A DNA stretch of 51,682 nt, taken from the NCBI RefSeq assembly GCF_012912105.1, contig NZ_QMEA01000032.1, positions 1 through 51,682 on the forward strand, read 5' to 3'. The notes under the pieces were generated by a model. That model was given only the letters and a program-made list of their open reading frames with translations. It searched no databases and was not told the origin of the DNA. Shown here piece by piece: positions 1,821 through 51,493 of this stretch (the stretch's first letter is position 1; every line of letters starts with the position of its first letter). The DNA comes from Brasilonema sp. UFV-L1 (GTDB lineage Bacteria; Cyanobacteriota; Cyanobacteriia; Cyanobacteriales; Nostocaceae). The position numbers were made by a program, and so were the translations under genes.

Positions 1821-4800
1821 ATGGATAATTTTTCTACCTTTTTAGATATCTTGCAATACCGAGCCATACATCAGTCCGAACAAATTGCCTATACCTTTTT
1901 AATAAACGGAGAAACAGAAAGCGTAAGTCTTACTTATCAAGAATTGGAGCGAAAAGCGCAAGCGATCGCCGTTCGACTTCAAGACCGAGTTAAAGTTCCT
2001 GGTTCGCGAGTCTTGTTGCTGTTTCCACCAGGTCTAGATTTTATTACTGCGTTCTTTGGCTGTTTATACGCTGGATTTGTCGCCGTTCCCGCCTATCCGC
2101 CTCGACGCAATCAAAAACTATCCAGACTGCAAGCTATTATATTGGATGCCCAAGCGTCGGCGGCGCTTACTACAACATCCGAATTGACTAGCATGGAAAG
2201 TCAATTGGTTCGGAATCCAAAATTATCTGCCATACACTGGCTAGCTATCGATAAGATTGACAGCGACTGTGCATCAGACTGGCAAGATCCAACTGCGAGC
2301 AGCGACACTCTCGCTTTTCTCCAGTACACTTCAGGTTCTACCGGAACGCCGAAAGGAGTAATGGTCACTCACGGCAATCTCTTGCACAACGAGCAAATAA
2401 TTCAAAGAGCATTTGGACATACGCACAATACTATTTTTGTCGGTTGGTTGCCTTTATTCCACGATATGGGATTAGTTGGCAATGTGTTACAGCCCCTATA
2501 TTTGGGAATACCGTGTTTTCTCATGTCGCCTGTAGCATTTCTGCAAAAACCAATTCGCTGGCTAGAGGCAATTTCACGCTACAAGGCAACTACTAGTGGA
2601 GGTCCTAATTTTGCTTACGAGCTTTGCGTTCGCCAAATTACGAAAGAACAGCGCGAGCGACTCGATCTAAGTAGTTGGGAAGTGGCTTTTAGCGGAGCCG
2701 AACCAATCCGAGCTGAGACACTAGAGCATTTTACTAGCACTTTCGCCGATTGCGGCTTTCGCCACGAAGTATTTTATCCTTGCTATGGGATGGCTGAGAC
2801 AACTTTATTTGTCTCTGGAGGCTTGAAAACGCAACCTCCAGTGATTTGCCAAGTCGAGAGAACTGCTCTCGAAAAAAACAAAGCAATAGTTGCGACTGAC
2901 GATCGCTCGGATATTCAAAAAATAGTCGGCTGTGGTCGGAGTTGGTTGGATACAAAAATCGTGATCGTCGAACCCAAATCTTTAACTCGGCTTACAGATG
3001 GACAAGTGGGAGAGATTTGGGTATCGAGTCCGAGTGTGGCTAGTGGCTACTGGAATCGACCATCGCAGACAAAAGATACTTTCCATGCTTATCTTGACAC
3101 GAATGAAGAACCGTATCTACGCACGGGAGATTTAGGGTTTTTGCAGGATGGCGAGCTATTTGTTACGGGTCGGTTGAAAGATTTGATTATTATCTTGGGT
3201 CGCAATCATTATCCTCAAGATATCGAACTAACAGTAGAACAAAGCCATCCAGCACTACGTCCTAGTTGTGGAGCGGTTTTTTCTGTCGAAATTGCTGGTG
3301 TAGAACAATTGGTGATCGTCCAAGAGGTAGAACGAACTCACCTGCGGAAGTTAAATGGCAATGATGCGATCGCGGCAATTCGCAAAGCAGTGGCAGAAGA
3401 GCACGATTTACAAGCTTACGCGATTTTGCTGCTCAAAACTGGAACGCTTCCAAAAACTTCTTCTGGGAAAGTGCAGCGTAGTGCTTGTCGAGAAGGTTTT
3501 CTGGCTGGTAGTTTGGATGTAGTGGCAGACTGGAGTGTAAATCCCCAATACAAAAACCATTTTCGGCATCTGGAATCAGAAGTAGAATCCCTGTGGCAAA
3601 AACTGCAAACGGATAATTTGTCAGCCAACTCTTCAGGGAGTACAAACGATCAACTACCAGCACTCAACGATCAACCAAAATCTAAAAATGTAGAGGCGAT
3701 CAAAGCTTGGTTAGTGGCAAAAATTGCCGAACATCTGCAAGTATCACCTGTAGAGATAGATATTCGCCAAGCTCTAGCTCAATATGGTTTAAATTCTCTG
3801 GCAGCAGTGAGAATTTCGGGCGAACTACAAGAATGGCTTGGACGCGAATTTTCTCCCACCTTACTATACGATTATCCTACCCTTGAAGGCTTAGCTCGAC
3901 ATCTAGTAGATGAAACTTCTGCTTGCGAAGGCTTTGCTCCGCAAAAAATTAAAACTGAAAGTAGGAAAGAAACTGAAGAGATCGCGATTGTTGGAATGGG
4001 TTGTCGTTTCCCAAAAGCCAACAATCCAGATGCTTTTTGGCAGCTATTACGCAACGGAGTCGATGCGATCGCTCTTGTACCCGCATCGCGTTGGGACAAC
4101 TATGCTTGCTATGGTGGCTTTTTGGAGCAAGTGGATCGATTCGAACCGCAGTTTTTTGGAATATCCCCACGTGAAGCAGAAAGTATGGATCCCCAACAGC
4201 GTCTGCTACTAGAAGTAAGCTGGGAAGCTCTAGAACACGCTGGCAAGGCACCAGATAAGTTAGCAGGAAGTCAGACAGGGGTTTTCTTTGGCATCAGCAA
4301 CTTTGATTATTCTCAGTTACAGTTCGACTTGAAGACTAGATTGGATGCCTATTTTGGAACTGGTAATGCTTTTAGTATTGCCGCTAATCGCCTATCTTAT
4401 CTTCTAGATTTGCGGGGTCCAAGCTGGGCAGTAGATACAGCCTGCTCTTCATCTCTAGTGGCAGTTCATCAGGCTTGTCAAAGCTTGCGCCAAGGAGAAT
4501 GCGAACTAGCATTAGCTGGAGGAGTCAATCTCATTCTCACTCCCCAACTGACTATGTGTTTCGATCAAGCAGGAATGATGGCTGCTGACGGTCGCTGTAA
4601 GACCTTCGATACGAATGCGGATGGTTATGTTCGTGGAGAAGGTTGTGGTGTAGTGGTTCTCAAATGTCTGTCCAACGCGCTTAGGGATGGAGATAAAATT
4701 CTGGCGATCGTTAAAGGTTCGGCAGTCAATCAAGATGGCCGCAGTAATGGACTTACGGCTCCTAACGGTGCTGCTCAACAGGCGGTCATTCGTCAAGCTT

Positions 4801-7800
4801 TAGCCAATGCTGGCGTAACACCAGCACAGATCGGTTATGTAGAAACTCATGGTACTGGCACTTTTTTAGGAGACACCATTGAACTGAATTCTCTTAAAGA
4901 AGTGTTGACGCACGAATGCTCGCATCGACAACCTTGCACGATTGGCTCGGTTAAAACCAATATAGGTCATTTGGAGGCTGCTGCCGGTATTGCTGGTTTA
5001 ATTAAAGTAGTGCTATCTTTACTTCATAAAGAGAAGTTTCCTCATCTACATCTGAAACAGAGAAATCCTCATATTTCTCTTGAAAGCACTTCATTATCGA
5101 TCGCTACCGAACTTCAACCGTGGTTACATGATAAAGAGCAACGTCTTGCTGGTGTATCTTCATTCGGTTTTGGCGGCACTAACGCTCATGTAATTTTGGA
5201 AGAAGCACCTATCTTTGATCCTTCTTTTCCCGTTACAGAAAGCGATTCTCCACAGGAGACGCTACGCGAACGCCCCAAACATTTGTTGACTCTCTCGGCA
5301 AAAAATGAATCGGCTTTGCAGGAGTTAGTACAAAAGTATCAAACTCATCTAGAACAAAATCCCCAAGAGTCTTTAGCAGATGTTTGCTTCACAGCCAATA
5401 CTGGACGAACGCATTTTGACCATAGATTGGCTGCGATCGTTGAATCTCGACAGCAATTGCAAACGACATTGAATGATTTTATTCTTGGCAAAGAGAATTC
5501 TGGGGTAGCAAGCGATTGCTCGCTCGGTCAAAAGTCTCCTAAAATTGCCTTTTTGTTTAGCGGTCAGGGTTCCCAGTATTTAGGGATGGGACGACAACTT
5601 TACCAAACTCAACCTACTTTCCGCAACTGTTTAGACCACTGCCAAGAAATTCTGTCTTCTTATTTAGAAAAGCCGCTACTATCAATTTTATATCCCGAAT
5701 CAGAGAGTGATTCTCCCCTAAATAAAACAATTTATACTCAACCATCATTATTTGCTTTAGAATACGCACTTTTCGAGTTATGGAAATCTTGGGGGATAAC
5801 TCCAGATGTAGTTATGGGTCATAGTGTGGGTGAATATGTCGCTGCATGTGTAGCGGGAGTATTCAGCTTGGAAGACGGACTCAAACTGATTTCCGAACGG
5901 GCAAAATTGATGCAGACACTGCCTCCTCAAGGTGAGATGCTAGTTGTATTTGCTGATGAAGCACAAGTAGCAACAGCCATTCAACCTTATACCTCAGAAG
6001 TAGCGATCGCCGCCATCAATGCCCCCAAAAATATTACGATATCTGGGCGTATACCAGCGATCGCCTCAATCGCTGATGCCTTGGAAGCACGAGGAATTGA
6101 GACTCGAAGCTTAAAAGTGTCTCATGCCTTTCACTCTCCTTTAATAGAAGATATTTTGGATACCTTTGAGTTACAAACCAGTCAAATCCAATTTCGCGCT
6201 CCAAGTATTCCCCTGATCTCCAATTTGACAGGGCAAATGATGTACTCAGAGTTTATCCCCGATGCCAAATATTGGCGACAACACACTCGCCAAACAGTAC
6301 AATTTATGGCAGGGATAAAAACTCTATTCGCACAAGGATACGAACTATTTTTAGAAATTGGCCCCAAACCAATCCTGTCGAGCTTAGGTAAACGCTGTCA
6401 ACAAGAAGAAAAGGCGGTTTGGCTACCTTCTCTAGCACCGCAGAAAGAGGATTGGCGAGTGATGCTGGAAAGTTTATCCGCATTATACATAAGCGGAGCA
6501 GAGATTGACTGGCTGGGATTTGATCGAGATTATTCACGTAGCCTACTTTCGCTTCCCACCTATCCTTTCCAAAGAAAACGCTACTGGATTCAAGAACAAA
6601 GCACAATGCCAAACCAGTTATCCAAGCCTATAAAGACAAACGCGATCGCTACTAACGGTTTAAATCCTGCTTTGACTACATTCACCAAAACGAACCAAAA
6701 AGAAACAATTCTCACAACCTTGCGAACTCTGGTTGCGAATTTACTTAAAGCAGAACCATCTGAGATAAATATAAACGCTCCTTTCTTAGAAATGGGCGCT
6801 GATTCTATAGTCCTTATTGATGCCGTTAACAGCATTGAAACAACCTATGGAATAAAAATTACTATTCGCCAATTATTTGAGGAGTTGACGACCCTTGATG
6901 CCTTGGCAAATTATCTAAACGAGCAGATCGTCCCAAAAGATTTAATTTTAAATGAGATAGAAACTAAGGTACTGTCGCCGCAAATATCACAACCAAGCGA
7001 GCGAGCGACAGTAGAGCAACAGATGGGATCCCAGAAAGCGATGGAAGCAATTATTCAGCAGCAGCTTCAGCTTATGTCTCAGCAATTAGAAGTGATGCGG
7101 GGTAATGGTTTATCCACAGTTCCCAATTTTTCTGCCCACAACGGACACTCAAAACCCGCAGTCGAAACACTTAAGCCAACACTACCCAAACCAATTGCTC
7201 AAGAAACATTTTCGCCCTTGCCCCCCTGGAAAGTCAGCGAAATTCGCCATCGAGGACTCAACCCGCAACAACAGCGTCACTTAGAAGATCTCATCGTTCG
7301 TTATACCCAGCGCACTCAAACCTCAAAACAACTAACGCAAACCTATCGACCAATTTTGGCAGACAATAGGGCTTCGGCGGGCTTTCGTTTCTCTACCAAA
7401 GAAATGCTCTATCCGATTGTGGGAGAACGTTCTCAGGGTTCGAGAATTTGGGATATCGATGGAAATGAGTACTTAGATCTGACAATGGGATTTGGGGTGA
7501 ATTTGTTTGGACACCAGCCCGATTTAGTGATCGCCGCTTTAAAAGAGCAGGTTGATCGAGGAATACAAATTGGACCCCAAACCCGTCTGGCAGGAGAGGT
7601 AGCGCAGCTAATTTGCCAAATTACGGGAATGGAACGAGTTACTTTTTGTAATTCTGGAACCGAAGCGGTGATGACAGCACTGCGCTTGGCACGCACAGTT
7701 ACAGGTCGTCAAAAAATTGCTTTGTTTGCTGGTTCTTATCACGGTCACTTTGATGGGACTTTGGCAATAACTCAAACGAGCGGCGACAGTTTAAATGTAG

Positions 7801-10800
7801 TACCAATTGCTCCAGGGATTACATCAAATACAGTCGCAGATGTTTTGGTGCTTGACTATGGCAATCCTCATTCCTTAGAGATACTCGAAGCCCACGCACG
7901 CGAACTGGCAGCCGTTTTAGTCGAACCAGTACAAAGCCGCCGACCCGATCTCCAACCGAGAGAATTTCTCCACCAACTGAGACAGTTAACGCGAGAAAAG
8001 GGAATCGCATTGATAATTGATGAAATGATTACTGGTTTTCGCATTCATCCTGGTGGAGCGCAAGCATGGTTCGGTATTGATGCAGATATTGCTACCTACG
8101 GCAAGATCGTCGGGGGGGGAATGCCTATCGGTGTCGTTGCTGGTAAAGCTATTTATATGAATAGTCTTGACGGTGGGATGTGGAACTATGAAGATGCATC
8201 CTATCCTCAAGCAGAGACGACATTTTTTGCTGGCACTTTCTGCAAACATCCTCTAGCTCTAGCTGCTGCGAGTGCTGTCCTCAAAGAAATAAAGATGCGC
8301 GGATCTACTTTGCAAGAGAATTTGAATCAGCGCACAGCTAAGTTAGCGGACACGCTGAATGCTTATTTTGAAGGCGAGAATTTACCCATTCGTATCGTTT
8401 ATTTTGGCTCGTTGTTCCGTTTTGCTTTTTCGAGCAATATGGACTTGTTATTTTATCATTTGCTCGAAAAGGGGATTTATGTTTGGGAGGGGCGCAATTG
8501 TTTTCTGTCTGCGGCGCATACTGACGAAGATATAGATTACCTAATTCAAACAATTAAAAATATTGTCGCCGAACTGCGAGAAGGTGATTTTTTACCAAAT
8601 TCTGACAGTAATAGCAGCCAAAAAGAGCAAAAATTAATACAAACATCGGAAAAAATAAGTGAATCTAACTTAGTAAAAGAAGGCGAAGTCGAGAAAGAAA
8701 CAGACAAAATCCTTTTAACTAAAGCTCAACAGCAACTCTGGATTTTGGATCAGATCGGAGACGATAGCACGCTCGCTTACAAAATCTCGATCGGTCTGCA
8801 ATTAAAAGGTTCGTTAAATCTGGAGGCGATGAATCGAGCCGTACAGCAAGTTGTAGATCGCCATGAGGCTTTACGGACAAAGATCGACAGTCAGGGTAAT
8901 TTTCAGCAGATTTTGCCATCTCTAAAGATAGATATTTCGTTAATTGATTTATCTAATGCAGGCGATGCTCCCCTTGGGAGCCGCCCTTTGGGCGATCGCG
9001 ATTTTCAAGTAACACAGTGGTTTAAACAAGAAAGCCTAAAACCTTTTGACCTGACTCAAGGACCTCTGTTCCGTTGTTACGTTCTTAAATTAGAAGAACA
9101 GCTACATCTACTGGTTATGACAGCTCATCACATTGTCGTCGATGGCTGGTCAATAAACGTTATCTTGCAAGAATTAGGTGCATTGTATTCACAAGAGTGT
9201 CAGGGTGAAGTTTATCAACTCAAGCCACCGATGCAATTTAGGGAATACATTAATTGGCAGGAACAGCAAAGTCAAACTGAGGAAATGGCAGCCCATGAAT
9301 CCTATTGGTTGGAAAAATTTGCAAGTTTAACTCCTGTTTTAAACCTGCCAACAGATCGTCCTCGTCCTCCAATAAAAACCTATAGGGGTAATAGGCAAAC
9401 GCTGCGGCTGAATGCAAGCCTTTATCGTGAAGTGAAACAGTTCAGCACAACAAAGGGTTGCACCCCGTTTATGACTCTCCTGTCTGCATATACGGCTTTT
9501 CTTCACCGATTGACAAGCCAAGAGAATATTGTAGTAGGTATTCCTTCTGCTGGGCGGTCTTCTGCAGGTAGTGAAAAGCTTGTTGGGTACTGTGCTCACC
9601 TACTACCCATCAGAAGTTGTGTTGTTGAAAATTTGACATTTTCCGAATATCTTGGCAAAATGAAGGGTGTCTTGTTAGAGGCTTACGAAAATCAAGATTA
9701 TCCTTTCGCTTGGTTGCTTAAACAGCTGAAATTAGGTCGGGACGCAAGCCACTCCCCTCTGATTGCAACCATATTTAACTTGGAGCGACCTGCAGCTGTG
9801 CCAAAAATGTTTGGACTGGAAACAGAGATTTTCGCTCCACCTATCAGTTTTACTGGATTTGATATCAGCTTTAATGTTATTGAGATCAGCGATGAGCTGA
9901 TATTGAATTGTGAGTACAACACAGACTTATTCGATGCTGCCACAATTAGCCGGATACTAGGTTATTTCCAGACCTTGGTAGAGGGGATTATCACTCATCC
10001 TGAACAACGGCTTTTTGAATTGCCTCTGCTGAGTGAAGCTGAGCAACATCAGTTACTTGTGGAGTGGAACAACACTCAAGCAGATTATCCCCAGGACAAG
10101 TGTATTCATCAGTTGTTTGAGGCTCAGGTAGAAAAAACACCGGATGCTGTAGCAGTGGTTTTTGAGGAAGAACAACTTACTTATCGAGAACTGAACGTAA
10201 GGGCAAATAAACTAGCGCACCATTTGCAAACTTTAGGTGTAAAACCAGAAGTACTGGTAGGAATTTGTGTAGAGCGATCGCTCTCCATGGTTATCGGACT
10301 ATTAGCCATCCTCAAAGCAGGTGGTGCATACATACCACTAGACCCGAGCTATCCTAAGGAACGCTTGGCTTATATGTTAGAAGACTCGCAACCAAGCGTC
10401 TTATTAACACAACAGCACCTAATAGAAAATTTACCAACTTATCAGGCAAAATTAGTTTGCACAGACAGTAACTGGGAACTTATCGCTCAACAGAGGACAC
10501 AAAACCCAGTTTGCAACGTTACATCCGATAATTTAGCTTACGTCATTTACACCTCTGGTTCTACGGGTCAACCAAAAGGAGCGATGAATACCCATAGGGG
10601 AATTTGTAATCGCTTATTGTGGATGCAGGATGCTTACCAATTGACAGCAGCAGATTGCGTATTGCAGAAAACCCCTTTCAGTTTCGACGTGTCAGTTTGG
10701 GAATTTTTCTGGACGTTGATTACAGGTGCACGTTTAGTAGTAGCTCAACCAGAAGGGCATCGAGATACCAGCTACCTAGTTAATTTAATTTTACAGCAGC

Positions 10801-16641: not shown

Positions 16642-16775
16642 AAAGTACAAAGAGTTTTTGTCCTATCTTAACAACTTAGACGTCAGGCTTTAGAGCATAA
16701 ACAATGGTTCCGCTCTAACGCTGCTAAAAGAACATTGACATCAGATTTGCACGGGAGATATATCAATAGGAAGTG
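16638..16775 (+). pseudogene. Relic of a TubC-type N-terminal docking domain
   Basis: Read across a frame change, this stretch recovers a docking domain. One frame (16646-16690) gives YKEFLSYLNNLDVRL and then a stop; the adjacent frame (16693-16773) gives EHKQWFRSNAAKRTLTSDLH and onward. Together these parallel the live TubC domain at 17061 (IEDFLSDLDDLDIKLW ... LRCNAPKGTLIPDIRAELAERK). The relic starts at an ATG overlapping the previous stop as ATGA, the natural place for the next NRPS gene. I infer that an NRPS 5' end once began here and decayed. Confidence 0.6.
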
Positions 16776-17060
16776 GTTCGTATTTTGTGGCAAAAAGGAG
16801 ATCTATTGATGTTAAATAATATGTTATTGACACATGAAAACCTGCCGATTTTTGTTACCTACATTGTAGGAGGCATGGCATAATTCTCTAATTTGAATAC
16901 TTTTTGTTCAAAAAGAGTGCAATTGATTAAAATAAATATTAATGCTCTGGTGTTAGGAGGGAGATTTCAATCTGATTAATCAGGGGTTTTTAGACAGGGT
17001 TAGCGTATCCCCCTATTATCTACATAGTTTTTGAAGAAGTAATTTTTAGAAAATAAAATT
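16776..17060. other. Non-coding spacer before the second NRPS gene
   Basis: No gene is seen. It holds a perfect 12-base palindrome, CTGATTAATCAG (16972-16983), and a repeat-like text CAGGGTTAGCG (16995-17005) that reappears at the right edge of the window (51656-51666). An internal promoter is plausible because this is one of the two larger gaps in the operon, but no clear -35/-10 pair stands out. Confidence 0.4.
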
Positions 17061-20594: not shown

Positions 20595-20606
20595 GAATAA
20601 TGCAAT

Positions 20607-33437: not shown

Positions 33438-33442
33438 AGGAG
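33438..33442 (+). promoter_or_regulatory. Ribosome-binding site fixing the start of the Dab NRPS
   Basis: AGGAG lies eight bases before ATG 33451. It supports that start rather than a TTG at 33409, and so confirms that the protein begins in the second half of a C domain. Confidence 0.65.
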
Positions 33443-33450
33443 ACATAATA

Positions 33451-38550: not shown

Positions 38551-38570
38551 TTAAAGGATTGGAACGAGCA

Positions 38571-41500: not shown

Positions 41501-44500
41501 AATCATCGCCCACATTTTTGGTGAGCTATTGGGGGTAGAAACCGTCAGCATTCATGACAACTTCTTTGAACTGGGAGGACATTCCCTCCTAGCTACCCAA
41601 TTAATCTCCCGACTCAGACACAGCTTTGAAGTAGAAATTCCCCTCAAAGCTATCTTTGCAGCGCCTAGCGTCGCGCAACTCGACCAAACCATCGCTCAAT
41701 TACGGACACAGGGACAAAGTTTGAATCTGCCACCGATAGAGCGAATTGCCCCAAACACAGAGAAAATCCCCCTCTCCTTTGCCCAAGAAAGACTGTGGTT
41801 CCTCAACCAACTCGAGGGAGCATCGGCAACTTATAATACGCCTGCCGCCCTACGCCTGAGTGGAGCATTAAATCTTAATGCCTTGCACCAAGCCCTAGCC
41901 GAAATCATCCGTCGCCACGAGGCACTCCGTACCAGTTTTGCCAACATCAATGGCACACCTATGCAAGTGATTCACCCAGAAGCCAGTATGGATATAGAGG
42001 TGGTGAATTTACAGCACTTAGAACAAAGCGAACGAGAACTAGTTGTAGAGCAACAATTACAACGAGCGGCTTTAGCTCCCTTTAATTTAGAGAGCGCTCC
42101 CTTAATCCGGTGCAGTTTATGGCAATTATCAGACAGCGATTACGTATTCGGCATTAATATGCACCATATAGTCTCGGATGGGTGGTCGATTGGCGTGTTG
42201 ATTCAAGAACTATCAGCGCTGTATAAAGCTTTTTGTACTGGAGAATCATCACCCCTACCAAATCTAGAGATTCAATATGCCGACTTTGCCCTGTGGCAGA
42301 GACAATGGTTGAGTAAGTCAGTACTAGAGAAGCAAATGCAATACTGGGTATCGCAATTACAGGGTGCACCAGAATTGCTGCAACTGCCCACTGATCGACC
42401 GCGCCCGAGCATGCAAACCTATAAAGGTGCAACGCAAAGCTTTGGATTGAATCAGGAATTAACCCAGAAATTAAAATCATTGTCGCGGCGGGCGGGCAGT
42501 ACGTTATTTATGACTTTGTTGAGCGCTTTCGCCACCTTACTGTATCGTTACAGCGGCCAGTCAGATGTGGTAATTGGTTCACCAATCGCCAATCGCCACC
42601 GCAGTGAAATAGAGCCATTGATTGGCTTTTTCGTGAATACCTTAGTTTTGAGAACTCAATTAGATGATAATCTGAGTTTTCAGCAGTTGCTGGCGCAAGT
42701 CAGAGAAACCACCCTCCAAGCTTATGAGCATCAGGATGTACCCTTTGAACAGGTAGTAGAAGCCTTACAACCTCAACGCTCTATGAGTCACTCCCCGCTG
42801 TTCCAAGTGATGTTTGTCTTGCAAAATGCACCGATGGGCGAGCTGGAACTACCTGGAGTGTCGTTGAGTGGGTTAGAACAGGAGAGGACGATTGCTAAGT
42901 TTGATTTGACCGTATCTATGTCCGAAACTTCGGCGGGATTGGGGTGTGAATGGGAGTACAACACTGACTTGTTTGATCGCTCAACCATCGAGCGGATGAC
43001 GAGTCATTTTGAAAACTTGTTGTCAGCCATTGCCTCTAATCCCCAGCAAAGAGTGAGTGAATTACCCTTACTGAGTACCGCCGAACGCCAGCAGTTGTTA
43101 TTCGAGTGGAATGACACCAACCGGGAATATCCACTAGACAAATGTATCCATCAATTATTTGAGGAGCAGGTAGAGCGCACCCCAGATGCGGTGGCAGTAG
43201 TATTTGAAAAGCAGCAATTGACTTATCAACAGTTAAACGCAAGGGCGAATCAACTGGCTCATTACCTGCAAACCCTTGGTGTTGGGCCAGAAGTACTCGT
43301 GGGCATTTGTGTCGAACGTTCTGTTGAGATGGTGGTAGGATTGTTAGGGATTCTCAAGGCTGGTGGTGCGTATGTGCCTGTTGACCCCACGTATCCTCAA
43401 GAACGATTGAGTTATATGTTGCGTGATGCTGGGGTGAAAGTGTTGTTGACGCAAGAAAACTTGTTGTCATCTGTGCCATCTCATACTGCCCAAATGGTTT
43501 GTTTAGATACTGATTGGCAACCGATCAAGCAGCATAGTCAGGAAAATTTAATTACTGGTGCGGGTGCAGAGAATCTGGCTTATGTCATCTATACTTCTGG
43601 CTCCACCGGACAACCCAAGGGGGTAATGAATACCCGTCAGGGAATTCGGAATCGGTTACTGTGGATGCAAGAAGCTTATCAATTAACGAGTAGCGATCGC
43701 GTTCTACAAAAGACACCTTTCAGTTTTGATGTTTCAGTATGGGAGTTTTTCTGGCCTTTATTAACCGGTGCTAGGATTGTAGTTGCTAGACCAGAAGGAC
43801 ATAAAGATAGTAATTATCTGATTAATCTAATTGCCCAAGAGCAAGTTACGACCATACATTTTGTCCCGTCTATGCTGCAAGCTTTTCTGCAAGAAGATAG
43901 TTTAGAAGATTGCAGTTCTTTGAGGCGAGTTTTTTGTAGTGGAGAGGCATTGTCATTTGAACTGAAGGAACGTTTTTTTGAATACTTTGAATGTGAATTT
44001 TACAATCTTTACGGACCTACAGAAGCAGCAATTGATGTGACTTTTTGGCGATGTCAGCCCCAATTAAATTGTCAGCTAGTCCCCATTGGTCGTCCAATTG
44101 CCAATACTCAAATCTACATTTTAGACCAACAAATGCAGCCAGTACCAATCGGAGTAACTGGAGAACTCTATATTGGTGGTGATGGCTTAGCCAGAGGCTA
44201 CCTGAACCGTCCCGAATTGACTCAAGAAAGATTCGTCCTCAACCCCTTCTCGCCTGACAAATCGGCACGCCTGTATAAAACTGGCGACCTCGCTCGTTAT
44301 CTTTGTGATGGTAACATCGAGTATATTGGTCGCATCGACCATCAAGTTAAGATTCGCGGCTTTCGTATCGAATTGGGAGAGATCGAAGCAGTGCTGAGTA
44401 GTCATCCCCAAATTCAACAAGCTGTGGTCATTGCAAGCGTTGATAATTTTGGAAACAAACGTCTCATCGCTTATGTAGTCAGCGAGTCAGAAACTTTTAG

Positions 44501-46388
44501 CACCCATCAACTGCGGGAATTTCTGCAACAGCAACTCCCCGCTTACATGATGCCCTCTGCCTTTGTCAGCCTCAATGCCCTGCCCTTATCGCCCAATGGT
44601 AAAATAGATAGAAAACCCTTACCTACACCCGATGGCGACATCGAACGAGAGGGAGAATATGTAGCTCCCCGCACGCCAAGTGAAGAAATCATCGCCCACA
44701 TTTTTGCTGAGGTGTTGGCGATAGAAACCGTCGGCGTTCATGACAACTTCTTTGAACTGGGTGGACATTCCCTCCTGGCTACCCAATTAGTCTCCCGACT
44801 CAAACAAAGCTTTGAAGTAAAAATTCCCCTCAAAGCCGTCTTTGCAGCGCCCAGCGTCGCGCAACTCAACCAAGCGATCGCTCAATTACGGGCAGAGGGA
44901 CAAAGCTTGAATCTGCCACCGATAGAGCGGATTGCCCCAGACATAGAGAAAATCCCCCTCTCCTTTGCCCAAGAAAGATTATGGCTTCTCGATCAGTTAG
45001 AGTCAGATAGTGTAGCATACAACATGCCTGCCGCCGTCAGAATAGAAGGAAAGTTACAGCCGACGGCTCTTGAAAGGAGTATCAGTGAAATTATTCGTCG
45101 TCATGAAGTCTTACGCACCAACTTTGTCAAACAAGACGGGCAAGCAATACAAATCATTCATCCCGTAAGTGACTGGCAAATGACCACCATTGACTTACAA
45201 TCTCTGTCAGCCAACCAGCGAGAAACCGAAATTCAAAGCCTAGCCACCACCGAAGCGGCCAAGCCTTTTAACTTGGCAACAGACTCTTTAATTAGAGGTA
45301 CACTACTCGCATTATCAGATAGCGAGCATGTCTTGTTACTAACAATGCATCATATTGTCTCTGATGGTTGGTCAATCGGAGTATTCATCCAAGAATTGAC
45401 CACCCTCTACTGTGCATTTGTAGAAGGGAAACCTTTACCTCTGCCGGAATTACCAATTCAGTATGCAGACTTTGCAGTATGGCAACGTCAATGGTTGCAG
45501 GGAGAAGAACTACAAAAACAACTGAACTACTGGCAAAAACAACTGGCTGGCGCACCAGCCTTATTAGAATTACCTACCGACTACCCTCGTCCAGCAGTGC
45601 AAACCTTTCGAGGAGCGAGGCAATCTCTGCAATTATCAAAGACTTTGATTGAGGAAATTAAGACGTTAAGTCGTCAAGAGAGAGTCACTTTGTTCGTGAC
45701 ACTATTTGCGACATTTACATGTTTGCTGTATTACTACACTGGTCAGGAGGATATAGTTGTAGGTACTGCTGTCGCTAACCGCAATCGTGCTGAAATTGAG
45801 AAATTAATCGGTTTCTTTGTTAACCAGCTAGTCTTCCGAATCGATCTCACTGGCAACCCTACCTTCGGAGAATTATTAGAGCGAGTTCGAGAGGTGGCAC
45901 TGGAGGCTGATGCTCACCAAGATTTGCCATTTGAAACGCTGGTAAGAGCCATGAAATTAGAGCGAAATCCAAGTCGAACTCCTCTGTTTCAGATAAAACT
46001 CGTTTTCCAAAATACTCCCGTATCAGATCTAAATCTTTCAGAGCTAAATGTAAATTTGATAGAGGTTGATAACGAGACGACGAAATTCGATCTTCTTTTA
46101 AATATGGAGGAGACACAACAGGGATTGTCTGGCTCCTTGCAATACAATACAGCCCTCTATGAATCTACTACCATCACGCAGTTTTTAGAACAATTTAAGA
46201 CACTTTTGAGCAAAATTGTAGCACAGCCTAATATCAGATTGAACACCATCAAAGAAATACTTTCTGAGGCAGACAGACAAAGGCAATTGGTAAAAGAACA
46301 AGAAGTAAAAAAGGCTGCCGTTCAAAAACTAAAAAAATCGAACAGACGTATCTCGAACAACTCAACTGAAAAGAAGTACAGATTATGA
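38571..46388 (+). CDS. NRPS: interface domain-A(Asp)-PCP-C-A(Ser)-PCP-C
   Basis: 2605 residues from ATG 38571 (a TTG at 38559 is too close to its AAAGGA). Residues 1-455 form a C-like domain whose HHxxxDG reads PSLCADS, as in the 'interface' domains of beta-hydroxyaspartate siderophore NRPSs. The first A (470-960) has code DLTKIGHVGK, an aspartate code. PCP near 1004. C 1060-1520 has HHIVSDG near 1199. The second A (1535-2020) has code DVWHFSLIDK, a serine code. PCP near 2066. The final C (2125-2577) has HHIVSDG near 2261 and should join Ser to the Asp of the last protein. The basic C-terminal tail (KKLKKSNRRI) parallels the C-TauD linker of the preceding protein. The stop overlaps the next start as ATGA. 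Confidence 0.93.
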   Translation: MQNQSFEGFRLSPQQKHLWLLQQNSMADRAQCVLLLEGRLKIEILKEALEKIVNRHEILRTIFHRRSGLKIPIQVINDSSKPSWQTFNLSDIDARQQQVKIEELFLEERKFPFDLEGDSLLRVSLLILSANQHMLLITLPSLCADSWTLKNLVKEIAYTYGQCLNDEELYDEPVQYLQFSEWQNELLEDEDAEAGRDYWRQQSSKSPPLLTLPFEKQSSGETKFEPNVLSLRIESAVVARLENIAKLNNNIKITEFLFACWQTLIWRLTRQPNIVINTIFSSRQYEELHETLGLLAKWLPIRCDFQNDFKFNEILTKISKSLHDGDQLQKYFMWEQNIETTSKAVNFPLAFEFQKWSNKYDVGGVSFSVEKQYVCFERFKVKLTCVHREEFLTAEIHYDPETIDLEGIQYLGQQFKTLVESAVNNPEAEVSKLDIFRAREREKLLFDFNQTRIDFPLDKCIHQLFEEQVEKTPNSIAVIFENQQLTYAELNARANQLARYLQNLGVKPEDLVGIYLERSPLITIGLLGILKAGGAYLPLDPTLPISGLDFRLHDAGAKILLTQEQLVKNLPESETKVVCLERDWDIIANEASNNLHCELTPDNLVYVIYTSGSTGKPKGVAIEHRQLLNYLYGIQKILNLTPGNSFALVSTFAADLGNTVIFPALCTGGCLHVISFERASDAQALADYFQEHPIDFLKIVPSHLKALLLFEYPAKILPRRQLILGGEATNWKLIEQIQQLAPECQIINHYGPTETTVGVLTYQVEKVPDSRQSSTVPIGCPLANTQIYILDSKKQPTPIGVPGEVYIGGAGLARGYLNRPELTAEKFILNPFNDDPQARLYKTGDLARYLSNDNIEFLGRIDQQVKIRGFRIEPGEIEAVLSSYPHIEQAVVIATEDTPDDKRLVAYIVSDNQDISIHQLREFLQQELPAYMVPAAFVILDTLPLTPNGKIDRLALPAPEEKTRTGEYVAPHTPSQEIIAHIFGELLGVETVSIHDNFFELGGHSLLATQLISRLRHSFEVEIPLKAIFAAPSVAQLDQTIAQLRTQGQSLNLPPIERIAPNTEKIPLSFAQERLWFLNQLEGASATYNTPAALRLSGALNLNALHQALAEIIRRHEALRTSFANINGTPMQVIHPEASMDIEVVNLQHLEQSERELVVEQQLQRAALAPFNLESAPLIRCSLWQLSDSDYVFGINMHHIVSDGWSIGVLIQELSALYKAFCTGESSPLPNLEIQYADFALWQRQWLSKSVLEKQMQYWVSQLQGAPELLQLPTDRPRPSMQTYKGATQSFGLNQELTQKLKSLSRRAGSTLFMTLLSAFATLLYRYSGQSDVVIGSPIANRHRSEIEPLIGFFVNTLVLRTQLDDNLSFQQLLAQVRETTLQAYEHQDVPFEQVVEALQPQRSMSHSPLFQVMFVLQNAPMGELELPGVSLSGLEQERTIAKFDLTVSMSETSAGLGCEWEYNTDLFDRSTIERMTSHFENLLSAIASNPQQRVSELPLLSTAERQQLLFEWNDTNREYPLDKCIHQLFEEQVERTPDAVAVVFEKQQLTYQQLNARANQLAHYLQTLGVGPEVLVGICVERSVEMVVGLLGILKAGGAYVPVDPTYPQERLSYMLRDAGVKVLLTQENLLSSVPSHTAQMVCLDTDWQPIKQHSQENLITGAGAENLAYVIYTSGSTGQPKGVMNTRQGIRNRLLWMQEAYQLTSSDRVLQKTPFSFDVSVWEFFWPLLTGARIVVARPEGHKDSNYLINLIAQEQVTTIHFVPSMLQAFLQEDSLEDCSSLRRVFCSGEALSFELKERFFEYFECEFYNLYGPTEAAIDVTFWRCQPQLNCQLVPIGRPIANTQIYILDQQMQPVPIGVTGELYIGGDGLARGYLNRPELTQERFVLNPFSPDKSARLYKTGDLARYLCDGNIEYIGRIDHQVKIRGFRIELGEIEAVLSSHPQIQQAVVIASVDNFGNKRLIAYVVSESETFSTHQLREFLQQQLPAYMMPSAFVSLNALPLSPNGKIDRKPLPTPDGDIEREGEYVAPRTPSEEIIAHIFAEVLAIETVGVHDNFFELGGHSLLATQLVSRLKQSFEVKIPLKAVFAAPSVAQLNQAIAQLRAEGQSLNLPPIERIAPDIEKIPLSFAQERLWLLDQLESDSVAYNMPAAVRIEGKLQPTALERSISEIIRRHEVLRTNFVKQDGQAIQIIHPVSDWQMTTIDLQSLSANQRETEIQSLATTEAAKPFNLATDSLIRGTLLALSDSEHVLLLTMHHIVSDGWSIGVFIQELTTLYCAFVEGKPLPLPELPIQYADFAVWQRQWLQGEELQKQLNYWQKQLAGAPALLELPTDYPRPAVQTFRGARQSLQLSKTLIEEIKTLSRQERVTLFVTLFATFTCLLYYYTGQEDIVVGTAVANRNRAEIEKLIGFFVNQLVFRIDLTGNPTFGELLERVREVALEADAHQDLPFETLVRAMKLERNPSRTPLFQIKLVFQNTPVSDLNLSELNVNLIEVDNETTKFDLLLNMEETQQGLSGSLQYNTALYESTTITQFLEQFKTLLSKIVAQPNIRLNTIKEILSEADRQRQLVKEQEVKKAAVQKLKKSNRRISNNSTEKKYRL
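39874..39899. repeat. 26-base perfect palindrome inside the interface-A linker
   Basis: TTTTTCGCGCTCGCGAGCGC continues as GAAAAA; the whole 26 bases equal their own reverse complement. It encodes FRAREREK between the interface and A domains. The sister linker near 48790 has no such palindrome. Confidence 0.85.
40881..41007. repeat. 127-base segment closely matching 49796-49922
   Basis: This stretch of the first Asp A domain matches the Asp A domain of the terminal gene (49796-49922) with five mismatches by eye. Both encode the stretch around STVPIGCP and PTPI.VPGEVYIGGAG. It indicates duplication of the Asp module with later homogenisation. Confidence 0.8.
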
Positions 46389-47410
46389 TAAAAACTGAAG
46401 AAAACAACATCAATAAGTTACGTCAAGCTAAGCGAAAGCCGATAAATCAAGAGCGAGGAAAATTAATTGAGGAAAAATTTATTAACTCTGATAACTTTTT
46501 TCCTTTAGTTATTTCACCCATTGTAGATGGAGTTAATTTAGTAGCATGGGCTGCCAAAAATCAGGATTTTATTGAAGATCGTTTACTAAATTATGGAGGT
46601 ATACTGTTTCGGAATTTTAATGTGAATGGAGCGCAAGAGTTCCAGGAATTTATCGAGGCAATTTCTAGAGAAAAATTAGTAGAGTACAATTATCGTTCAA
46701 CTCCACGCACTCAGGTAAACGATAAAATCTATACTTCAACTGAATATCCTCCCAACCAATCGATCCCTCTCCATAACGAGAAAGCTTATTCTTCTGTTTG
46801 GCCGATGAAAATTTGTTTTTTCTGCGCCCAACCTGCCCAACAAGGTGGCGAAACACCGATTGCTGACAGTCGAAAAGTTTTTGCAAAACTTGATTCTGCC
46901 ATAAAAGAAAAGTTTATGCAGAAGAAAGTGATGTACGTTCGTAACTACGGTGACTTAGATTTGTCCTGGCAAGATGTTTTTCAAACCACAAACAAATCAG
47001 AAGTAGAAAATTTTTGCCGTAAAGAAGGCATTGAATTTGAATGGAAAAATGATCGCCTCACAACTCGTCAAGTTTGTCAGGCTGTTGCCAAACATCCTCA
47101 TACAGGTGAAATGGTTTGGTTCAACCAAGCTCATTTGTTTCACATTTCAAGTTTGCAAACAGAAATACGCGAATCATTATTCTCTTTATTGGCAGAAGAT
47201 ACTATTCCACGCAATGCTTATTACGGTGATGGTTCAACCATTGATCCCTCTGTGATCGAGGAGATTAATCAGATCTATCAACAAGAAAAAGTTGTTTTTT
47301 CTTGGCAGAAAGGAGATATTTTGGTACTGGACAATATGTTAAGTGCTCATGGACGTATGCCCTTTGTCGGCACGAGAAAGGTTTTGGTAGGTATGTCTGA
47401 ACCTTGTTAA
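46385..47410 (+). CDS. TauD/SyrP-like Fe(II)/2-oxoglutarate beta-hydroxylase
   Basis: A stand-alone enzyme of 341 residues, predicted to hydroxylate the beta-carbon of PCP-bound aspartate using Fe(II), O2 and 2-oxoglutarate. Metal ligands are visible as His130 and Glu132 (PLHNEKA) and distal His322 (SAHGRMP). FCAQPAQQGGETPIAD and YGDGS blocks are shared with the hydroxylase fused to the protein ending at 38550, so the two are paralogues. It overlaps the upstream stop by four bases (ATGA), giving tight coupling, and precedes the terminal interface-A(Asp)-PCP-TE gene, its probable partner. The basic N-terminal 40 residues resemble the linker that joins C to TauD in the fused version. Confidence 0.9.
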   Translation: MIKTEENNINKLRQAKRKPINQERGKLIEEKFINSDNFFPLVISPIVDGVNLVAWAAKNQDFIEDRLLNYGGILFRNFNVNGAQEFQEFIEAISREKLVEYNYRSTPRTQVNDKIYTSTEYPPNQSIPLHNEKAYSSVWPMKICFFCAQPAQQGGETPIADSRKVFAKLDSAIKEKFMQKKVMYVRNYGDLDLSWQDVFQTTNKSEVENFCRKEGIEFEWKNDRLTTRQVCQAVAKHPHTGEMVWFNQAHLFHISSLQTEIRESLFSLLAEDTIPRNAYYGDGSTIDPSVIEEINQIYQQEKVVFSWQKGDILVLDNMLSAHGRMPFVGTRKVLVGMSEPC

Positions 47411-47432
47411 TTGACAACATTTTTAATTCAAG

Positions 47433-47437
47433 AAGGA
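47433..47437 (+). promoter_or_regulatory. Ribosome-binding site of the terminal NRPS
   Basis: AAGGA lies nine bases before ATG 47447. The start aligns with the MQNQSFEGFRLSPQQKHLW start of the paralogous protein at 38571; a TTG at 47411 would add an unsupported extension. Confidence 0.55.
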
Positions 47438-47446
47438 TTTGGAGAT

Positions 47447-50400
47447 ATGCAAAGTGCAATTATTGATGGATTTCGTATTTCACCTCAGCAGAAGCATTTA
47501 TGGGTTCTACAGCAAAGCGATTACGCTAGTCGCGTAAGCAGAAACAATCACCAGATCGCTTATTATTCTCAAATTGGTATACGTATTGAGGGAAATATCG
47601 CTCCAAAAATTTTAAAAGCTGCCTTAGAAAATATCATTGAGCGACAAGAAATTTTTCGTACCGTTTTCAATTGCTTGCCTGAAATGTCAATACCACTTCA
47701 GTTCGTAACCGAAAACAGTATACTAATGTTTGAAGAGCGCGATCTAAGCGGTTTGACTTCCCAAGAACAAAAGATTCAGATCGATGCACTTTTTCAAGCT
47801 CGAAGTTGGCAAACTTTCGATTTGGAAAAAGGACCTCTTTTATATACAGTATTAAACAAGCTATCATCATGCGAGCAGATCTTATTTATCAGCTTACCTG
47901 CCGTTTGCAGCGATCTAACAACACTTCATAATTTGGTAAAAGAAATTTGTCATTTTTATGAAGCATACTTGGACGGGAGAGAATTTTCTGATGAATTGAT
48001 GCAGTACGCAGATATATCTGCATGGCTAAATGAATTATTGGAATCAGGGGACACAGAAACAGGAAGAGAGTATTGGCGAAAACAGAATGTTTTTTCGGTT
48101 TTAAATAAGAAAATTCCTTTAGAAAATTATTCATCTGCAAAAGTACAATTTGAACCCCAATCTTTAACACTAGAAATTAATTCCGATACGGTAACAAAGT
48201 TAGAAATGCTTGCTCGCAAGTATGACACTTCGATTTCTGTATTCTTACTAGCTTGCTGGCAAATTCAACTCTGGCGTTTCACCGAACAGTCAGATATTGT
48301 TGTCGGCACTGCCAGCGATGGGCGTAAATATCAAGAATTAGAAGATGTCTTAGGATTATTGACCAAGTATCTACCCATCCATTCCCATCTTGAAGAAAAT
48401 CTTCATTTCAAAAAACTGCTGGAAAAAGTTGAGGAAACTTTAAGCTCTGGTCACGAATGGCAAGAATATTTTAGCTGGGAGCAAGTTACTGCTAAGAATG
48501 GAAATGGGATAGAACCACCCTTTTTTCCTTTTTGTTTTGATTTTCAAGAACAGCCTGCAAATTGTCTTGTTAGTAACGTCTTATTTTCTATATACAAAGA
48601 ATATACTTGTATTGATCGCTTTAAAGTAAAACTTTCTGGGGTTCGTCTCGACGAGCGCTTGTTGCTGGAGTTTCATTATGATTCCAACTTATTTCCCTTC
48701 AAAAATATCAAAATCCTTTCAGAACAATACCTGACTTTACTCGAAAGCGCGATCGCTTACCCAGATAACGCGATCGCCGATTTAGAAATGTGTAGCGATC
48801 GCGAACGACAGCAATTGCTAATTGAATTCAACGATACTCATACCGATTACTCAAAAGATAAGTGCATTCATTCTTTGTTTGAGGAGCAAGTAGAACGTAC
48901 TCCAGAGGCAGTGGCGGTAGTGTTTGAAAACCAGCAACTGACCTACAGGGAATTGAACAATCGCGCTAATCAACTGGCACAATACCTGAAAACATTGGGG
49001 GTAGAAACAGAAACATTGGTAGCTATTTGTGTAGAACGCTCATTGGAGATGGTGGTAGGTATATTGGCAGTACTCAAAGCAGGAGGAGCTTATGTGCCAC
49101 TTGACCCTAATTATCCATCAGAGCGTTTAGTCTATATGCTGCAAGATGCTCGAATTTTAGTATTATTGACTCAACAGAAACTACAAAAAAATCTTACTGA
49201 TTGTCAAGTTAATATTATCTGCCTTGACACAGACTGGGGGAAAATAGCTAGCGAAGCAAACGACAATCCCAACACTCAGGTAAAACCAGAAAATCTAGCT
49301 TATGTGATTTACACTTCTGGTTCTACTGGGTTGCCTAAAGGTGTAGCTATCGAACATCGGCAATTGTTTAACTATCTCAACAGCATTCAAACAATACTGA
49401 ATCTTCCTTTAGGAGCGAATTATGCGACAGTTTCTACCATAGCAGCAGACTTAGGTCACACTGTTATCTTCCCTTCCTTGTGCGGTGACGGATGTCTACA
49501 TATAATCTCTTCCGAGCAAATCATTAATGCCAAAGACCTGGCCGATTACTTCGAGCACAATTTAATCGATTGTCTTAAGATTGTTCCCTCCCATTTAAAA
49601 GCGTTGTTAACATCAGAAGCTGGCGCGCAAATTTTGCCACGTCAGCGTTTAGTTCTTGGTGGAGAATCAACCAGTTGGGAGTTGATCGAACAAATTCAAC
49701 AACTAGCTCCAAAATGTCAAATTATCAATCACTATGGGCCGACTGAAACTACGGTAGGGGTTCTTACTTACCAAGTCGAAGGAGTACCCGACATTCGACA
49801 ATCTTCAACTGTTCCCATCGGTTGCCCCGTAGGCAACACTCAAATTTATATACTTGACTCGAAAAAACAGCCGACACCAATTAGTGTTCCTGGGGAAGTA
49901 TACATTGGTGGTGCAGGATTAGCTAGGGGCTATCTCCATCGTCCCGAACTGACAGCAGAAAAATTCATTTCCAACCCCTTCAGTGATGATCCACAATCGC
50001 GACTATACAAAACAGGGGACTTAGCTCGGTATCTACCAGATGGCAATATTGAGTATATCGGTCGTATTGACAACCAAGTCAAAATCCGTGGTTTTCGGAT
50101 TGAGTTGGGCGAAATTGAAGCAGTTTTGAGCCAATATCCCCACGTACAGCAGGTTACGGTAATTGCCAGCGAAGATACCCCAGGTGATAAACAATTAGTA
50201 GCCTATCTAGTGAGCGATGCCGAGGAGAATCCTAGTATTAGTGACTTGCGACAATTCTTGAAAGAGAAGTTACCAGGGTATATGGTTCCTGCTGCTTTCG
50301 TGTACTTAGATGCGCTCCCCTTGACTCCCAATGGCAAAATAGATCGCCGTGCCTTACCCGCACCCGATCTTAATAGCATTGCTGTGGACAATCGCTTTTT

Positions 50401-51493
50401 TCGATCGCTCGATCTCGTAGAACAGCAACTTGCAGAAATATGGTCAGAAGTTCTAAATCTTTACCCCATCGGAGTCAAGGATAACTTTTTTGAGCTTGGC
50501 GGACATTCCCTTTTAGCTGTCCAACTGATGGCCAAAATTGAACAGCAATTCCGAATCAATTTACCCTTGTCAGTACTCTTTCAAAACTCGACTATTCAAC
50601 AACTAGCGACTTTTTTGCGTCAGCCAGTAGATACATCGATCTGGTCTCCCTTGGTGGCAGTTAAGCCCAGTGGTTCCAACAAACCTTTCTTTTGTGTGCC
50701 TGGAGCGGGTGGCAATCCTATGTATTTCTACAATCTTGCTCATCATTTAGGTCGAGAACAACCTTTTTATGGACTACAAGCACTCGGTCTTGATGGGGAA
50801 TCAGAACCACACACACAAGTTGAGATTGCGGCAACATTTTACATTCAAGCAATACAGTCTATTCAACCGAAAGGACCATATTTGTTAGGAGGTCATTCTT
50901 TTGGATCTAAAGTAGCTTTTGAGATGGCGCAGCAGTTACAAAAACTAGGTCACGAAGTAGCACTTTTGGCTCTTTTCGATACTACTGCACCAAATGTTGA
51001 TGATGTTGATGCCAAATCGCAACATGTTGAGGTGGAAAATGCTTTTTGGTTAAATAAAATTGGCTTAGTATTGGAAGAACTTTACGAAACAAGCTTAGAT
51101 ATATCCTACGAAGTTCTTAAATCCTTTGAGTCAGAAGAAGAACAATTAAAGTATTTTCAAAAGCAATTACAGCTAGCCAATGTCTTACCCGCTGAGATTG
51201 GAATCAAGCAACTGCGGGGACTAGTTAAAGTTTATAAAACTCAGGTTAATACTATCTATCAACCAAGAGAGACAGAGACTATAAATCAAATTACTTGTTT
51301 TATGGCTAGTGGTGAGAATAAGTCTTCTGAAGATTTAGAAAATAAAGCTTTAACCTGGAGAAAATTTTCCAAGTTACCAGTGAATATCCAAGTTGTTCCG
51401 GGCAAACACATAACAATGCTTAATGAACCTCATGTTCGAGTTTTAGCAAACAAAATAAGAGACTGTCTTGAAAAAACTCAGGAAACTGGTTAG
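47447..51493 (+). CDS. Terminal NRPS: interface domain-A(Asp)-PCP-TE
   Basis: 1348 residues. The first 470 form a second interface-type C-like domain (FRISPQQKHLWVLQQ), with HHxxxDG replaced by PAVCSDL near 151. A 485-975 has code DLTKVGHVGK, an aspartate code. PCP Ser1021 (GGHSLLA). A type I thioesterase follows from about 1075: FFCVPGAGG, nucleophile Ser1151 in GGHSFG and His1321 in GKHITML. It ends the line by hydrolysis or cyclisation; the beta-amine of the fatty acid and the Dab side chain are both possible nucleophiles, and the sequence does not decide. The upstream C domain of the protein at 38571 should supply the peptidyl chain, and the hydroxylase at 46385 should oxidise the bound Asp. 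Confidence 0.93.
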   Translation: MQSAIIDGFRISPQQKHLWVLQQSDYASRVSRNNHQIAYYSQIGIRIEGNIAPKILKAALENIIERQEIFRTVFNCLPEMSIPLQFVTENSILMFEERDLSGLTSQEQKIQIDALFQARSWQTFDLEKGPLLYTVLNKLSSCEQILFISLPAVCSDLTTLHNLVKEICHFYEAYLDGREFSDELMQYADISAWLNELLESGDTETGREYWRKQNVFSVLNKKIPLENYSSAKVQFEPQSLTLEINSDTVTKLEMLARKYDTSISVFLLACWQIQLWRFTEQSDIVVGTASDGRKYQELEDVLGLLTKYLPIHSHLEENLHFKKLLEKVEETLSSGHEWQEYFSWEQVTAKNGNGIEPPFFPFCFDFQEQPANCLVSNVLFSIYKEYTCIDRFKVKLSGVRLDERLLLEFHYDSNLFPFKNIKILSEQYLTLLESAIAYPDNAIADLEMCSDRERQQLLIEFNDTHTDYSKDKCIHSLFEEQVERTPEAVAVVFENQQLTYRELNNRANQLAQYLKTLGVETETLVAICVERSLEMVVGILAVLKAGGAYVPLDPNYPSERLVYMLQDARILVLLTQQKLQKNLTDCQVNIICLDTDWGKIASEANDNPNTQVKPENLAYVIYTSGSTGLPKGVAIEHRQLFNYLNSIQTILNLPLGANYATVSTIAADLGHTVIFPSLCGDGCLHIISSEQIINAKDLADYFEHNLIDCLKIVPSHLKALLTSEAGAQILPRQRLVLGGESTSWELIEQIQQLAPKCQIINHYGPTETTVGVLTYQVEGVPDIRQSSTVPIGCPVGNTQIYILDSKKQPTPISVPGEVYIGGAGLARGYLHRPELTAEKFISNPFSDDPQSRLYKTGDLARYLPDGNIEYIGRIDNQVKIRGFRIELGEIEAVLSQYPHVQQVTVIASEDTPGDKQLVAYLVSDAEENPSISDLRQFLKEKLPGYMVPAAFVYLDALPLTPNGKIDRRALPAPDLNSIAVDNRFFRSLDLVEQQLAEIWSEVLNLYPIGVKDNFFELGGHSLLAVQLMAKIEQQFRINLPLSVLFQNSTIQQLATFLRQPVDTSIWSPLVAVKPSGSNKPFFCVPGAGGNPMYFYNLAHHLGREQPFYGLQALGLDGESEPHTQVEIAATFYIQAIQSIQPKGPYLLGGHSFGSKVAFEMAQQLQKLGHEVALLALFDTTAPNVDDVDAKSQHVEVENAFWLNKIGLVLEELYETSLDISYEVLKSFESEEEQLKYFQKQLQLANVLPAEIGIKQLRGLVKVYKTQVNTIYQPRETETINQITCFMASGENKSSEDLENKALTWRKFSKLPVNIQVVPGKHITMLNEPHVRVLANKIRDCLEKTQETG

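Follow-up and report, generated by a model that had tools for sequence, protein, structure and literature searches.

The contig NZ_QMEA01000032.1 of the cyanobacterium Brasilonema sp. UFV-L1, read over its full length of 51,682 nucleotides (hereafter the window), carries a chimeric polyketide synthase-nonribosomal peptide synthetase (PKS-NRPS) line of ~50 kb, the product of which is, on balance, probably an amphiphilic, photoreactive, cyanochelin-like beta-hydroxyaspartate (OHAsp) chelator on a beta-amino-fatty-acid base. The assembly comprises 337 contigs and 8.31 Mb, of which the window makes up contig G000:C232 in full, and 11 co-directional long open reading frames (ORFs; P0001 to P0011) occupy its + strand from 1671/1821 to 51493. 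A first-pass annotation made from the letters alone had proposed a siderophore candidate and had begun the leading FAAL gene at ATG 1821, which is still the most likely start, the ORF itself opening at 1671.

The colinear domain order agrees between Pfam and hidden Markov models made from the window's own domains. With genes separated by slashes, the first half reads FAAL-ACP-KS-AT-ACP-AMT-C-A-T / KS-AT-KR-ACP / C-A-T / KS-AT-AMT-ACP / C-A-T-E / C, and the second half class-III transaminase / half C-A-T-C-TauD / I-A-T-C-A-T-C / TauD / I-A-T-TE. The best Pfam match of each of the 11 genes has an E-value of ≤1.7e-44, and the domain assignments are not chance matches.

The proposed chelating core is marked by two TauD hydroxylases, each lying between a C domain and a catalytically dead interface (I) domain ahead of an Asp module. 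The first is fused into P0008 (33409..38550), where it occupies 37591-38538 after C5 (36172-37500), and is followed in P0009 (38559..46388) by I1 (38592-39923), A5 for Asp (39963-41420, code DLTKIGHVG), T and C6, and then by A6 for Ser (43158-44603, DVWHFSLID), T and C7 (44946-46283). The second is the standalone TauD-type Asp beta-hydroxylase P0010 (46385..47410), which precedes I2 (47468-48838), A7 for Asp (48878-50338, DLTKVGHVG), T and TE (50663-51457) in P0011 (47411..51493). Both hydroxylases keep the HNE and AHGR motifs, and both interface domains lack HHxxxDG, reading LPSLCADSW and LPAVCSDLT respectively. An interface domain, as Reitz et al. reportedly defined it in 2019, is a C-like domain without HHxxxDG that adjoins a hydroxylase and an Asp module. 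Judged from this layout, one hydroxylation would be placed on each Asp, and the two beta-hydroxy-Asp residues foreseen in the first-pass annotation are upheld by two Asp codes, two interface domains and two TauD hydroxylases with their motifs. A FAAL start and a pair of Asp modules, served by a fused TauD enzyme in one case and a standalone one in the other and each provided with an interface domain, are among the features by which a cyanochelin-type cluster is recognised, and the window has both.

In a FastTree phylogeny of 123 C-type domains, I1 and I2 formed a clade of 27 rows (support 99) with the 25 interface domains taken from relatives, and H[HF]xxxD was seen in 0/25 of the latter, against 69/70 C domains and 18/18 E domains. 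Across 21 cyanobacterial loci with a full-length hydroxylase, an interface domain directly followed all 37 hydroxylases scoring >300 bits; TauD hits of ≤300 bits were excluded, namely an 81-bit hit in G361:C84 (with an AMT next) and partial hits in G361:C450. Within a subset of 15 loci, the interface domain followed 31/31 hydroxylases and a C domain preceded 30 of them; ahead of the other one, the stretch showed no domain. The nearest interface domain from another locus shared the partner type (fused or standalone) in 39/39 cases, a figure inflated by near-duplicate loci such as G197/G161, against a mean of 20 and a maximum of 31 in 2000 label shuffles; domains covering <60% of the model were skipped in this hydroxylase-interface pairing test. 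The same split emerged from the C-domain tree, except that the fused partners of cyanochelin B and Leptolyngbya boryana fell below both groups. The window holds one fused-type pair and one standalone-type pair, and in a hydroxylase tree of 92 rows the TauD domain of P0008 belongs to a 23-row fused clade that contains the enzyme of cyanochelin B (support 100/99). That each hydroxylase type has its own interface type, and that a diaminobutyrate (Dab) cassette recurs between clusters (see below), suggests a modular kit, from which matched hydroxylase-interface parts might be drawn for assembly-line engineering.

The expectation that an interface domain comes next is no general rule outside cyanobacteria, because most Pseudomonadota enzymes come first in their clusters: 63 TauD hits in 52 loci drawn from all phyla were followed by an interface domain in 19 cases, by FAAL in 24, and by other domains or none in 20. 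The hydroxylase-then-interface layout was also seen in loci of Acidobacteriota, Pseudomonadota, and Bacteroidota (L055, L063, L093, L094).

The beta-carbon configuration is given as S for fused and R for standalone enzymes (PMC12628792, excerpted text, citing Reitz et al. 2019), and L-erythro OHAsp is reported with the standalone enzyme of tistrellabactin (PMC10391617, excerpted text). By analogy, the first OHAsp of the window would be L-threo (2S,3S) and the second L-erythro (2S,3R), the latter because neither Asp module has an epimerase; with both forms predicted in one chain, this stereochemistry rule is directly testable. A survey has already named two classes of Asp hydroxylase in cyanobacteria (CyanoBH_Asp1 and 2; PMC12971057), which may be the fused and standalone types of the present set.

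When the seven A domains were aligned at motif anchors, their codes came out, in order, as DVWHISFVD, DATKIGEVG, DILQFGLIW, DIWEMTADD, DLTKIGHVG, DVWHFSLID, and DLTKVGHVG, pointing to Ser, Asn/Asp, Gly, Dab, Asp, Ser, and Asp; the assignments of Ser, Gly, and Dab rest on what we take to be established codes. The domain map and these codes bear out the colinear residue order of the first-pass annotation, including its two Asp codes, read here without the final K. The modules of cyanochelin B carry the same Asp code DLTKIGHVG and the same Ser code DVWHFSLID, and their Gly code is one letter apart from that of the window. The tistrellabactins likewise share the codes DLTKVGHVGK, which loads L-erythro OHAsp with a standalone hydroxylase, and DATKIGEVGK, which loads Asn or Asp; unlike the window's product, they finish the iron site with graminine and a hydroxamate, and they are not cyanobacterial (PMC10391617). 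The Asn that had been queried at the second position therefore stands as one possibility beside Asp.

Ahead of this peptide part, P0001 (1821..11969) consists of FAAL (1821-3521), ACP, KS (3975-5426), AT (5550-6494), ACP, AMT (7410-8594), C1 (8703-10058), A1 for Ser (10116-11567), and T; it is predicted to make a 3-amino-fatty acyl group and join it to Ser. All three AT domains of the line contain HAFH, which we assume to denote the malonyl type. C1 clusters with two C domains located after an AMT (FastTree support 99). P0002 (11962..16641) is KS-AT-KR (14833-16065)-ACP and is predicted to add one malonate to Ser and reduce it, giving a 4-amino-3,5-dihydroxypentanoyl unit. P0003 (17061..20594) comprises a TubC_N docking domain, C2, A2 (18699-20186, DATKIGEVG, Asn or Asp), and T, and is followed by P0004 (20607..25568), with KS-AT-AMT (23907-25106)-ACP, the predicted product of which, once extended and transaminated, is a 3,4-diamino acid.

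P0005 (25852..30564) contains C3, A3 for Gly (27379-28830, DILQFGLIW), T, and an epimerase domain (29134-30456) with VIHSLIVDPAA in place of HHxxxDG and QYQGRQ in place of EGHGRE, motifs of which the first (as HHxxxD) is kept in 27/27 and the second (as ExHGxE) in 25/27 of the relatives' epimerases. On its motifs this domain is judged catalytically dead, which suits Gly. The Dab module that follows is split, its C domain being the separate gene P0006 (30566..31978, HHFIIIDG), and P0008 opening with only a half C domain (33499-34215) before A4 for Dab (34273-35835, DIWEMTADD) and T. The C domain of P0006 is of the after-epimerase type, groups with four lone C domains adjoining Dab modules (support 100, FastTree), and should condense Dab in trans. 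Between the two lies P0007 (31992..33356), an EctB-type diaminobutyrate-2-oxoglutarate transaminase, which scores above the Dab transaminase thresholds of two NCBIfam models (TIGR02407, 567.7 bits vs 552.2; NF006733, 608.2 vs 438) and so supports Dab at position 4.

A row of lone C, Dab transaminase, and half C-A(DIWEMTADD)-T was found in 5/23 relative loci (Nostoc UHCC 0926 locus 2, G225, G292, G011, and G446), the lone C of G011 being of the ordinary type; the same transaminase and half C also occur in L053 and L096. This recurrence marks the split row as a conserved, ancestral cassette and not as damage, which bears on the improbable view that the cluster is decaying or silent. In favour of decay are the dead epimerase, the half C domain, a neighbouring MFS gene cut after 40 codons, an upstream transposase remnant with an 84% identical copy, and the repeats at both contig ends. 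However, all 11 genes are open, the remaining catalytic motifs checked are present with small departures (HHIVTDE in C3, QTACST in the P0004 ketosynthase), the dead epimerase suits Gly, and the half C domain has its ancestral counterpart in those five relatives.

Taken in sequence, the line would work as follows. The FAAL would load a fatty acid, KS-AT would add malonate, and the AMT would convert the beta-keto group to an amine. Ser would then be joined, followed by malonate extension and reduction, and Asn (or Asp) would be joined next, followed by malonate extension and transamination. Gly would enter without epimerisation, the epimerase being dead, and the lone C domain of P0006 would add Dab supplied by P0007. 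The first Asp would be loaded and beta-hydroxylated within its module by the fused TauD held by I1; Ser would follow, and the last Asp would be hydroxylated by the standalone P0010 with I2. The predicted role of the TE of P0011 is chain release, possibly with cyclisation, the chain leaving either linear or closed onto the beta-amine. The resulting OHAsp-Ser-OHAsp would provide four of the six Fe(III) ligands, in a complex that would be photoreactive.

Among named systems, cyanochelin B (Leptolyngbya sp. NIES-3755, AP017310.1) offers the closest parallel to this core, and the kinship with cyanochelins that had been noted earlier holds: its cluster shares the FAAL start, Gly followed by OHAsp-Ser-OHAsp, the fused hydroxylase before the first Asp and the standalone one before the second, and the interface domains (PMC12628792). 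It differs from the window in the thiazoline-Phe in front, in having no Dab and no AMT that was found, in the epimerases of its Ser and second Asp modules, in the terminal reductase leading to ethanolamine, and in the adjacent TonB/ABC/MFS/Dev cassette (PMC12628792). OHAsp siderophores can release iron to the whole community under UV light (PMC12628792), and cyanobacterial peptide metallophores have been termed understudied (PMC12971057). The near-duplicate relatives G197 and G161 resemble the window in an AMT unit after a PKS module and in the succession of fused TauD, I-Asp, Ser, TauD, and I-Asp (G197 also has KS-AT-KR), but their AMT unit lies directly ahead of a hydroxylated Asp, no Dab cassette was seen, and a terminal epimerase replaces the TE. 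The OHAsp-X-OHAsp (i,i+2) spacing, which speaks for a siderophore, was present in 10/13 relatives with at least two hydroxylated modules, G197 and G161 being near-duplicates.

The 33 window domains were compared with 23 relative loci, and the resulting best-match table depends on the loci fetched. The Dab cassette, C5, the fused TauD, I1, A5, and A6 have their best matches in clusters bearing two or three hydroxylases, and A7 has its best match in G406, where one hydroxylase was seen. FAAL, ACP, KS1, AT1, AMT1, C1, C2, A2, the standalone TauD, I2, and TE, on the other hand, find theirs in a family of five loci (G440, G384, G481, G529, G430), the layout of which is a FAAL-KS-AT start (with an AMT module in 4/5), a TauD / I-A-T-TE end, and, beyond the TE, an MFS gene, with DevABC also present. 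These recurring short beta-amino lipopeptide clusters (L200-L202 in Scytonema sp. NIES-4073, L132-L134, L203-L204, L208-L210, and L211-L213) end in TauD / I-A(DATKxGEVG)-T-TE with MFS and DevABC. The window resembles them in the FAAL-ACP-KS-AT start, in 4/5 loci continued by ACP-AMT-C-A, and in the TauD / I-A-T-TE end followed by MFS; it differs in that theirs is a single hydroxylated module (DATKxGEVG), with neither Dab nor a fused hydroxylase and with ≤3 amino acids in the part read.

This family lends weight to the strongest competing explanation, which we rate as clearly less probable than the chelator: an exported non-siderophore, probably a macrocyclic beta-amino lipopeptide of the iturin/laxaphycin/puwainaphycin kind that merely contains OHAsp, closed by the TE onto the beta-amine and acting on membranes or competitors. 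The 11 domain types just listed favour it, as do the MFS and DevABC genes of the five loci, in which no TonB gene occurs in the stretches read. In the window too, an MFS exporter gene starts ~40 bases beyond the TE gene (51533..51652, + strand, 40 codons, its stop just ahead of a dispersed repeat at 51656), with its best match in the G529 MFS (E 2e-5; 0/200 shuffled peptides match at E ≤0.01). The iturin-type order FAAL-ACP-KS-AT-ACP-AMT-C with a terminal TE is present in the window, and cyclic beta-amino lipopeptides typically begin with FAAL-PKS-AMT, the starters of iturin/mycosubtilin (MycA) and puwainaphycin having a FAAL with ACP, PKS, and AMT leading to a beta-amino fatty acid (PMC4219810, excerpted text). 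Nevertheless, iturin/mycosubtilin and puwainaphycin have an unrelated peptide part and no OHAsp, and the five loci have one hydroxylated module each with an Asn-like code, whereas two such modules, with Asp codes and i,i+2 spacing, occur in the window, together with the Dab cassette and fused hydroxylase of cyanochelin-type clusters.

Several observations weigh against the cyanochelin-like chelator. The starter unit, C2, A2, standalone TauD, I2, and TE are closest to the five-locus family with MFS and DevABC; the only enzymes grouping with P0010 are those of G384 and Scytonema NIES-4073 (91/90), and it forms no well-supported set with the standalone enzyme of cyanochelin B; and the standalone hydroxylase of NIES-3756 lies beside the fused clade. 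No catechol, hydroxamate, or third-hydroxylase gene was found among the 11 genes, HHxxxD is missing from no C domain other than the half C domain and the interface domains, and no third bidentate ligand is evident. No TonB, FecCD/ABC, or binding-protein homologue was found on the contig, which ends in a repeat soon after the TE, with the exporter gene cut after 40 codons. Nor was there a match in the window to a Fur-box consensus that may be unsuited to cyanobacteria. The siderophore candidacy of the first-pass annotation is accordingly strengthened by the OHAsp-Ser-OHAsp core and weakened by the lack of an uptake homologue on the contig and by end domains nearest to exporter-bearing lipopeptide clusters, while its remark that a third bidentate ligand is not evident is supported by the domain map and C-domain motifs. 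The third ligand might come from hydroxyls or amines of the PKS units, and in cyanochelin B the last two donor positions are likewise unproven (PMC12628792).

The right end of the contig lies 189 bases past the TE, in a dispersed repeat that recurs at other contigs' ends, and the assembly is compatible with either an insertion or a break at the cut MFS gene, between which it cannot tell. At the left end, a dispersed repeat of 47 bases lies within 1-100, followed by a transposase remnant (168-1008) that shares 84% identity with a copy on C272. Queried with the G384 MFS protein, the same genome gave hits at six places, the cut gene being evidently continued at none of them, and no homologue of the uptake queries was found in the 10 contigs read (whole or one stretch) of the 20 that share window end sequences (8 + 12).

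TonB receptors, a point in favour of a siderophore, were present in 9/23 relative loci within the stretches fetched, and five TonB genes lie elsewhere in the Brasilonema genome. At G000:C77 ~22,800-60,000 (L183, L184), a FAAL-led PKS-NRPS cluster, possibly a second siderophore cluster, stands back to back with a divergent TonB gene (19,485-22,220); at G000:C287:5,000-26,700 (L185, L166), a FAAL-NRPS cluster and MFS share a strand, the opposite one carrying TonB, FecD-like, and ATPase genes. Neither of these TonB-linked FAAL clusters, C77 or C287, gave a TauD hit.

A calcium-dependent or syringomycin-like lipopeptide antibiotic containing OHAsp and Dab is highly improbable: Dab does adjoin OHAsp-Ser-OHAsp, and the spacing D-X-D is reminiscent of Asp-X-Asp-Gly, a motif known from calcium-dependent lipopeptides, but no Gly follows the second Asp, the window has no halogenase or Thr module for the chlorothreonine pathway and terminal OHAsp-ClThr of the syringomycin family, and both hydroxylases fall outside the clade (99/99) of 32 standalone Pseudomonadota enzymes in a tree without a labelled SyrP. 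The syringomycin-like alternative that the first-pass annotation had kept beside the siderophore loses ground on the same counts, there being neither a halogenase family hit nor a Thr code.

A more specific version of the chelator is put forward tentatively, namely that the line is a natural graft, in which an exported macrocyclic beta-amino lipopeptide supplied the frame and a cyanochelin siderophore the iron-binding core. The product would then be cyclic, UV-reactive, and dependent on iron, with 4-amino-3,5-dihydroxy and 3,4-diamino units, and two orthogonal hydroxylase-interface pairs would set the two OHAsp stereochemistries in its chain. P0004 is itself close to a gene of different surroundings: against G361:C450 its AMT region is 91% identical and the gene 81% identical in DNA, and the downstream genes differ.

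No ortholog was found in 217 genomes of the family (best P0010 identity 65%), and no same-order cluster among the relatives from 388 sampled genomes of the order (best P0010 identity 64%). The top segment of a contig-wide scan, at 69%, belongs to a Richelia metagenome-assembled genome (L096), the neighbours of which differ from the window, and a nearest-sequence search of a plasmid collection returned query coverages of ≤8%. Each of the 23 annotated relative loci differs from the window, and no known cluster with the same module order was met. The literature searched covers cyanochelins A and B and other cyanobacterial metallophores and, in the text seen, describes no beta-amino-lipid OHAsp siderophore, the cluster lists of Galica 2021 and Reitz 2019 being unchecked.

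Three minor observations concern the relatives and the window. Interface modules with the code DSALIAEVW, which we presume to specify beta-hydroxyhistidine, follow a standalone hydroxylase in G383 (62444-66787) and G011 (40977-46748, joined coordinates), so that three hydroxylated ligands are indicated in those clusters. An acylase gene occurs in L016 of L. boryana (34777-36918), with homologues 65-71% identical in the beta-OHAsp clusters of G383, G292, G011, and G406 and none on the window contig; our assumption is that it perhaps trims the fatty acid, as in pyoverdine maturation. Lastly, the gap between P0004 and P0005 (25576-25730) contains two direct repeats of 15 bases and an inverted repeat whose 24-base arms are separated by 104 bases.

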